From NCBI GenBank assembly GCA_026004615.1, contig BPJM01000002.1, forward strand, positions 1 through 64,000: DNA of 64,000 nucleotides, written 5' to 3'. Under the pieces are notes generated by a model. That model saw only the letters and a program-made list of their open reading frames with translations, was not told where the DNA came from and ran no database searches. Each line of letters begins with the position of its first letter. Position 1 is the stretch's first letter. Made by a program: the position numbers and the translations under genes. The stretch is from Planctomycetota bacterium (lineage in GTDB: Bacteria; Planctomycetota; J058; J103). Shown piece after piece: positions 1 to 3,670 of the stretch.

Positions 1-1393
1 GGGTGGATCGCCGAGGTCCTGAGGTCGCGCGGCACACCCCGCATGTCGGTATCGTCCGGCACGAAGACCAGCTCGTCCTCGCCGAACTCCGGGTGCTCGA
101 TCTCGATCGCGATCGTCTGCGTGTCGAAGGGGTAGTCGTGGAGCAGGAAGTTGCCGCGCAGGGTCGCGCGCACCCGGTAGCCCAACCAGGTCCAGCCGCC
201 GAACTGTTCGCGGCCCAGCCGTTCCCGGCTGGCGACCGTGCCATTGGCGAGTTCGAAGGCGAAATCCTCCTCGTCCTCGGCCAGCCGGCCGCGCCAGCGG
301 AACCAGAGATACATGTCGGCGTCGAACGTCCCGCGCTTGAGATCGAGCTCGGAGACCGCGAGGATGAACACGCCCACCCAGACCCGCACCGGCCGTTCGA
401 AGGCATCGATGGCGCGGAAGTACTCCAGTGCCCCGGCGTGCATGGCGATGGACAGCTCGGCGCCTGCGGCGCGGGCGTCGAGCTGGCCGGCCGCCGGGTG
501 GGCCTGCGCGAGCACGGCGCGCGCCGCCTGCTCCGATAGCCCCCGCGCCAGCTCGGCCGCGATGACCGCGGGCGTCGCCTCCGCCACCACCAGCAGCGCG
601 CGGAGTGCGACCGTCGGCACATCCTCGCGCTGCTCCGGGTAGGTGCCGGCGGGGATCGTCACGGCGCGCAGCGCCGGCGACTGCGCCATGCGCCTGCGCG
701 ACCGCCCGGGGATCGAGTGGCAGCAGTACCGCGCCGTTGCGCGCCGCCGCTTCGATCTGGGGCGCGGGCGTGGCGCGGACCTGGAGCCAGGCGTCGATCT
801 CGCCCGCCCCCAGCGCTCGTTCCGCCTCCTCCTGCGGCAGGTAGAGCAGCTGGCAGTTCGCCGCCTCGAGCCCGTGCGCGCGCAGCACCCCGAGCCCGGT
901 GAAACTGGAGCCGCTGCCGAGCGGGCCCACCGCGATCCGGCGGCCCCGCAGCTCGGCCACCTGGTGGATCCCCGCCTCCCGGCCGGACCAGCAGGTGGAC
1001 GCTCTCGAGGAACAGGGCGCCGATCGCCCGCACGTTGCGCACCGGCTCGGAAAACAGCTCTTCGCCCTTCCAGGCGGCCCGCAGCACGTCCTCCTGCACG
1101 ATGGCGGCCTGGACCTCGCCCCGGGCGAGGCGGCGCAGGTTGTCGACCGAGCCACCCGAGGGCTCGATGCGGACCCGCACCGCGCTGCCGCCCCGCGCCT
1201 GGATGATCCGCCCCAGCGCCTGTCCGACCCGGTGGTAGGTTCCCTCCGGCGCAGCGGTGGCGATGCGGAGCTCGTACTGCAGATCCTGGGTCTCGGCGCG
1301 CACCGCCGCCGGCGCGGTCGCGAGCGCGAGCAGCCACAGCAGCGGGAAGGCGGGGGGGCAGCCGCTGCCCCGCGCCGTGCGCCGCCCGCACAT
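1..1393 (-). CDS. TAXI solute-binding domain fused to pentameric ligand-gated ion channel (partial, frameshifted)
   Basis: The start is the ATG at 1393, with a GGGGAGG ribosome site eight bases upstream inside the end of the preceding gene. An N-terminal signal peptide (about residues 13-33, cleavage after AVRA) leads into a TAXI-type TRAP binding domain: GTYHRVG near the start, then LGSGSSFTGLG and VTIPAGTYPEQ. The frame then continues into the extracellular domain of a bacterial Cys-loop (pLGIC) channel, recognisable by RVWVGVFILAVSELD, the following GTFDADMYLWFRWRG and the pre-loop DYPFDTQT. The membrane domain should lie beyond base 1. Two frame changes, near 970 (GGAGGCGGGG) and near 695, must be bridged. 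TAXI proteins bind small carboxylates in the periplasm, so this looks like a channel with a built-in ligand-capture module. Both domain families are clear; the ligand and channel activity are not known. Confidence 0.8.
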
Positions 1394-1397
1394 GGGC

Positions 1398-1825
1398 TCA
1401 ATCCTCCCCGGCAGCGCTCCCGGCGGCCGCGCGCCGCCGCCGGCCCACCTCTTCGCGGAGGTACTCGATGTAGTCCTGCATCGAGGCGCCGGGCCCGAAG
1501 ATCTCGCCCACCCCGGCCGCCTTCAGCCGCGCGATGTCGGCCTTCGGGATGATGCCCCCGCCGATGACCAGCACGTGCCCGGCACCCTGCTGGCGGAGCA
1601 GCTCCAGGATGCGCGGGAACAGCGTCATGTGGGCTGCGGAGTGGATCGAGATGCCGATCGCGTCCACGTCCTCCTCGATCGCCGCCCGGACCACGGTCTC
1701 CGGCGTCTGGCGGATCCCGAGGTAGACGACCTCGAAGCCGGCATCGCGCAGCGAGCGCGCCACCACCCGCGCCCCCCGGTCGTGGCCGTCGAGGCCGCAC
1801 TTGGAGATCAGCACCCGGATCGGTC

Positions 1826-1829
<4 letters not shown>
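1398..1829 (-). CDS. Cobalamin-binding small subunit of acyl-CoA mutase
   Basis: The protein has 143 residues and starts at a GTG that overlaps the large-subunit stop (GTGA-like, 1826-1829). The B12-binding signature DGHDRG (the His is the lower axial cobalt ligand) lies near residue 16, followed by the usual SIHSAAH and GGGIIP segments of the Rossmann-like base-off cobalamin domain. The length matches separately encoded small subunits of isobutyryl-CoA or methylmalonyl-CoA mutases. It would form the catalytic complex with the product of the upstream gene. The C-terminus is Arg/Ala rich. The sequence is intact, unlike its partner gene. The ribosome site and start of the TAXI-channel gene lie in its last codons, so the three genes are probably co-transcribed. 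Confidence 0.92.
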
Positions 1830-3510
<1,681 letters not shown>

Positions 3511-3670
3511 CGCGGTGCCTCGTCCGGGGATCGCGCGGTGCGATTCTAATCCCGGCGCGGGATCCGTGCCAGCGGCGGCCGCCCGCCCGGCGCGGGGCAG
3601 GCCCGGCGCGCCCGGCCTGCCATCCCCGGCCTCGGTTTGCCCGCGGTGCTCCCGCCTGCCCCCAGGCTGG

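Follow-up and report, generated by a model that had tools for sequence, protein, structure and literature searches.

A TAXI-type binding domain fused to a pentameric ligand-gated channel core in Planctomycetota

The window analyzed here, a 64,000-nt stretch of Planctomycetota DNA (G000:C2:1-64000), begins with a minus-strand gene (1393 to 3) that an earlier note, made from the sequence alone, had read as a TAXI periplasmic binding domain fused to the start of a pentameric ligand-gated channel (pLGIC). The structure and function of the N-terminal domains of prokaryotic pLGICs have been called unclear in the literature, with DeCLIC as the one solved example. The locus raises the question of whether a TAXI-topped channel exists and, if so, what it might sense.

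The fusion gene of the window

Window base 1 is also base 1 of the contig, and because the gene reaches this contig start, it is cut there. The window copy consists, from N to C terminus, of a signal peptide (an earlier claim supported by hydropathy), a TAXI binding domain and the N-terminal portion of a pLGIC extracellular domain (ECD). Two small frame corrections had also been claimed, and breaks were indeed found at ~980 (about 978-982) and ~690 (about 683-691). Mapped onto paralog residues, window positions 1330-980 correspond to 17-135, 978-697 to 136-230, and 683-12 to 234-458; since on this scale each piece begins within a few residues of where the previous one ends, both breaks lie inside the TAXI domain. 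Pieces 1, 2, and 3a (Table 1) scored 69.8, 40.9, and 45.2 bits, respectively, with the TAXI profile PF16868 (NMT1_3; cut-off 27 bits), and piece 1 matched the TAXI structure 1us4 in the PDB (E 7e-8). The junction between the two domains lies within a single frame, window:3-683(-), which contains no stop codon, so that the interruption between the domains named in the earlier note as evidence against its reading is absent. Residues 5-92 of the translated frame match the C-termini of TAXI proteins in the PDB, and a GABA-A receptor ECD is matched weakly by residues 134-206. The same frame is 46% identical to residues 244-454 of an intact paralog (L009), with 49% identity between piece 3b and the L009 ECD.

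Table 1. Coordinates of the fusion gene, its upstream neighbors and its intact paralogs (window positions unless a locus is given).
Feature	Coordinates	Strand	Content and evidence
Fusion gene piece 1	982..1393	-	ATG 1393 followed by a signal peptide-like segment and the beginning of the TAXI domain; motifs GTYHRVG, GGSVDNL, IVQEDV, LFLE
Fusion gene piece 2	691..978	-	Central part of the TAXI domain, in another frame (ELRGRRIAVGPLGSG)
Fusion gene piece 3a	408..683	-	C-terminal TAXI part (VTIPAGTYPEQ ... MHAGALEYF)
Fusion gene piece 3b	3..407	-	Frame shared with 3a; linker and N-terminal two-thirds of pLGIC ECD, Pro-loop HDYPFDTQ; ended by contig end
Shine-Dalgarno GGGGAGGA	1402..1409	-	Directly 5′ of mutase small-subunit TGA (1400-1398), 8 nt from fusion ATG 1393; sequence
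B12-binding small subunit, acyl-CoA mutase	1398..1829	-	Upstream neighbor; PF02310, 97.4 bits
Acyl-CoA mutase large subunit	1829..3530	-	At least four frame pieces; PF01642 pieces, PDB matches
Intact paralog L009	L009:3551-5491		646 aa; G000:C3
Intact paralog L010	L010:4346-6256		636 aa; G000:C4

Intact relatives and their domains

Two intact paralogs, L009 and L010, which are 38-39% identical to each other, occur on other contigs of the same genome (G000), and a fourth, full-length fusion gene (L012/L046; 646 aa) was found in the Planctomycetota MAG JACPWG01 (G089). With TIGR02122 (TRAP_TAXI; cut-off 84.35 bits), L009, L010, and L012 scored 228, 206, and 98 bits, respectively; no match to the type-I binding-protein profile Peripla_BP_6 was found in the fusions. 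The C-terminal halves matched LGIC subfamily profiles with E-values of 1e-10 to 1e-17 but with scores far below the strict cut-offs of those models, and Neur_chan_memb (PF02932; cut-off 28.1 bits) scored 43.7 bits in L010, 26.6 in L009, and 19.0 in L012. The C-terminal half aligned with GLIC residue by residue from the Pro-loop through M4 (E about 1e-12), and the Pro-loop YPFD was present in all copies, including that of the window. AF2 models of L009 and L010 (pLDDT 87 and 90) both showed a two-lobe TAXI fold, a β-sandwich and four long helices (519-542, 548-571, 581-609, and 612-645 in L009); the models are monomers with a pTM of 0.71, so the relative placement of the domains is uncertain. 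Foldseek searches of the PDB returned the glutamate-bound TAXI proteins 1us4/8u79 (TMt 0.86-0.89) and GLIC (TMt 0.75-0.80), and L010 matched GABA-A receptors as well. M1-M4 were also recognized by hydropathy in L009 and L010, so that the four membrane helices of a pLGIC core, which the earlier note had proposed to look for, are seen in both intact paralogs. The window copy ends before M1-M4, and its membrane domain was sought elsewhere in the G000 assembly and not found.

These observations bear on whether the gene is an artefact, either a chimeric assembly or, in the window copy, a decayed pseudogene. Such a reading could draw on the two frame breaks and the contig end in the window copy and on the heavily frame-broken mutase beside it. 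However, other contigs carry two intact copies, an independent MAG carries a further one, and a mutase on contig C1 is likewise split by frame breaks into three pieces (a copy on C12 is whole), which makes sequence error a common cause in this assembly. Because mutases are frame-broken too, indel errors are common in G000, and it does not follow from its two breaks that the window gene is a pseudogene. For the architecture the chimera reading is already refuted, and the artefact explanation as a whole is hardly credible. The fusion read in the earlier note is thus confirmed by the profiles, by the junction in one open frame and by the intact paralogs, and the TAXI-pLGIC architecture is established by several independent genes.

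The architecture is rare. Among 392 Planctomycetota genomes, four fusion genes were found in two genomes (G000 and G089), with no further examples in the two classes to which these genomes belong. G000 is 78% complete, so absences from it are weak. Among the best 80 of 123 pLGIC relatives across bacteria and archaea, L046 was the single TAXI fusion and four were type-I PBP fusions, and a plasmid search returned no record covering 80% of the fusion protein. A single origin of the fusion was not rejected by the TAXI tree (p-AU 0.42) and was weakly rejected by the channel tree (p-AU 0.04), the latter because L012 groups with L047, the nearest unfused channel; no TAXI gene was present within 2.3 kb before L047. 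Four other Planctomycetota proteins (L019, L015, L021, and L025) each carry a tandem TAXI pair in a single open frame, without a channel.

Binding residues, pore and genomic neighbors

In VcGluP, S75 and G156 grip the α-carboxyl of L-glutamate, and Y45, Q93, and E125 hold its amino group; affinity falls 213-fold in Y45A and 990-fold in Q93A (PMC11574862). By alignment, the equivalents of all five residues are kept in all three G000 copies (Y59 and Q107 of L009 correspond to Y45 and Q93), and the Tyr45/Gln93 pair is not universal in the TAXI family. Y200 and M201, which belong to the second lobe, are not conserved in the fusions, so glutamate stays a candidate ligand only. An α-amino acid is therefore our best guess for the ligand of the three G000 copies, with glutamate perhaps as the leading candidate. 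The earlier note had suggested a short-chain acyl ligand, a proposal whose sole basis was the neighboring mutase; because the residues that hold the α-carboxyl and amino groups are kept in three copies, an α-amino acid is the likelier of the two. In the G089 copy, the positions equivalent to Y45, S75, Q93, E125, and G156 are occupied by A, P, P, Q, and C, respectively, and this loss of all four head-group residues indicates that amino-acid binding is not constant across the architecture.

Our preferred reading, which we consider fairly probable, is that the fusion is a pLGIC that senses amino acids and has a type-II clamshell as its gating or modulating domain. The pentamer would bear five clamshells on top, each closed by an α-amino acid, of which L-glutamate or something closely related is the most likely; the movement would pass through a short linker (about 8-15 residues) to the β-sandwich and so bias the pore. 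The architecture, the predicted folds and the conserved ligand-gripping residues are observed, whereas pentamer formation, conduction, clamshell gating and the identity of the ligand are inferred. A point against this reading is that the two fusion-bearing genomes are both metagenome assemblies or comparable to them in quality. The more specific proposal of bacterial glutamate-gated Cys-loop channels with type-II venus-flytrap gating and paralogs of different ion selectivity in one cell is considerably more doubtful. An alternative of which we are similarly doubtful is that the TAXI domain serves in ligand delivery, concentrating a ligand that, once freed, opens the channel at the classical inter-subunit site. 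This scheme was already proposed for PBP-I and Cache fusions by Tasneem et al. 2004 (PMC549065), and it would suit the G089 copy, which keeps its channel though the TAXI head-group residues are lost.

The pores of the copies are not alike. In the GLIC register, the aligned residues include -2′E, 6′W, and 9′F in L009; 0′R, 2′G, and 9′L in L010; and -2′E, 0′K, and 9′L in the G089 copy. The G000 genome carries at least three diverged copies; the two whose pores are visible, L009 and L010, probably have unlike selectivities or assemble together into mixed pentamers. The copies may also differ in conduction. A GlyR-like ARLGLGI stretch in L010 was considered as a sign of anion selectivity and dropped, since 0′Arg is common in unfused bacterial pLGICs. 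The bulky 6′Trp and 9′Phe of L009 could mean a non-conducting pore or a shifted register. If the former, the pLGIC half might anchor and oligomerize the TAXI domain as a sensor or scaffold that signals to partners such as neighboring kinases, and regulatory genes do lie beside two copies: an FHA-Ser/Thr kinase gene divergent from L009 and an OmpR-HisKA (response regulator-histidine kinase) pair divergent from the G089 copy. However, L010 and L012 have an ordinary 9′Leu with small residues at 2′, there is conservation of both M1-M4 and the Pro-loop, and the neighbors differ between copies; we regard this explanation as improbable.

The position of the Shine-Dalgarno sequence directly before the stop codon of the mutase subunit makes co-translation with that subunit plausible for the window copy. 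The N-terminal piece of the mutase matched 2-hydroxyisobutyryl-CoA mutase (4r3u) with an E-value of 1e-20, compared with 4e-10 for human MCM, and has Gln at the Arg position of the MCM motif KEFMVRNTY; the enzyme is probably not a methylmalonyl-CoA mutase. No mutase occurs beside the other three fusions, and we rejected it as a conserved association in view of the kinase, the aldolase and phosphofructokinase (PFK), and the two-component pair found there; the functional coupling suggested earlier is unsupported by these unrelated neighbors. At the C4 locus (L010:2977-7296), a DeoC/LacD-type aldolase gene precedes the fusion gene by ~20 bp, and the PFK gene is oriented toward it from the other side.

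As TAXI domains normally serve TRAP transporters, and a TAXI-transporter fusion is known (PMC12344293), the TAXI domain might instead hand its ligand to a transporter, with the channel half as a membrane tether. Two TRAP systems do lie ~10-17 kb from the C3 copy. Against this, the two G000 TRAP permeases (DctM) adjoin their own DctP-like binding-protein genes (assigned by sequence reading, not by profile), PF16868 was found in G000 in the three fusions only, and no TRAP permease adjoins any fusion, all of which makes tethered uptake very unlikely.

Comparison with known systems

Fusions of pLGICs with PBP-I and with Cache/MCP-N domains were described by Tasneem et al. 2004, who found PBP-II solely as separate, operon-neighboring genes (PMC549065). 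The PBP-I-fused channels resemble the TAXI fusions in having an N-terminal periplasmic binding domain on a full pLGIC core, but the domain has the type-I fold (Peripla_BP_6) instead of the type-II TAXI fold, and in the channel tree they form their own clade (99-100% support) with the TAXI fusions outside it. Its members L064, L086, L096, and L125, from Magnetococcales and Ca. Magnetocorallium (Nitrospirota), make one clade across two phyla. Also among the best 80 of 123 relatives, an 883-aa frame of the Synechococcaceae MAG JAAUUJ01 (L051:5782-8430) encodes a pLGIC followed by a C-terminal SBP_bac_5 domain and is possibly another, reversed binding-protein-channel fusion. A MAG contig titled Klebsiella pneumoniae (L081; CAMAWH010000055.1) carries a pLGIC that clusters with channels from delta-proteobacterial and Planctomycetota MAGs, and its title looks like that of a mislabelled bin.

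GLIC of Gloeobacter shares the ECD, the Pro-loop YPFD, and M1-M4 with the fusions but is proton-gated and has no N-terminal domain. DeCLIC, the sole pLGIC with a characterized N-terminal domain in the literature consulted on these channels, devotes about half its mass to that domain, as the fusions do; there, however, it consists of two calcium-sensitive jelly-roll lobes (NTD1/NTD2) and not of a TAXI fold (PMC12664993, PMC9897478). VcGluP and TtGluBP have the TAXI fold (TMt 0.84-0.89) and the equivalents of Y45, S75, Q93, and E125 in common with the fusions, but they are soluble TRAP partners and not fused to a channel, and their Y200/M201 are absent from the fusions. The TAXI-GltS fusions of Lachnospiraceae, reported in 2025 (PMC12344293), likewise place an N-terminal TAXI domain on a membrane protein; their membrane half is a sodium/glutamate symporter, whereas the C-terminal half of the fusions described here matches GLIC. 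No description of a TAXI-pLGIC fusion was found in a literature search that covered a minority of subscription journals and preprints and no architecture listings of protein databases, and the architecture may have been recorded somewhere unnoticed.

The type-II (TAXI) fusion appears to be new, pLGICs with type-I PBP, Cache/MCP-N, and jelly-roll domains being already known. In ionotropic glutamate receptors, the pore is inserted into the clamshell, the channel is a tetramer and the pore fold is unrelated. These receptors have in common with the fusions a type-II glutamate-binding clamshell within the channel protein (PMC549065), whereas in the fusions the clamshell precedes a Cys-loop-type core. 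Since ligand-bound structures and known binding residues are available for the TAXI family, the ligand and its coupling are accessible to point mutants, and the combination is directly testable as a ligand-gated channel. The fusion unites, in one chain, a clamshell of the ionotropic glutamate receptor kind and the pore of a Cys-loop receptor.
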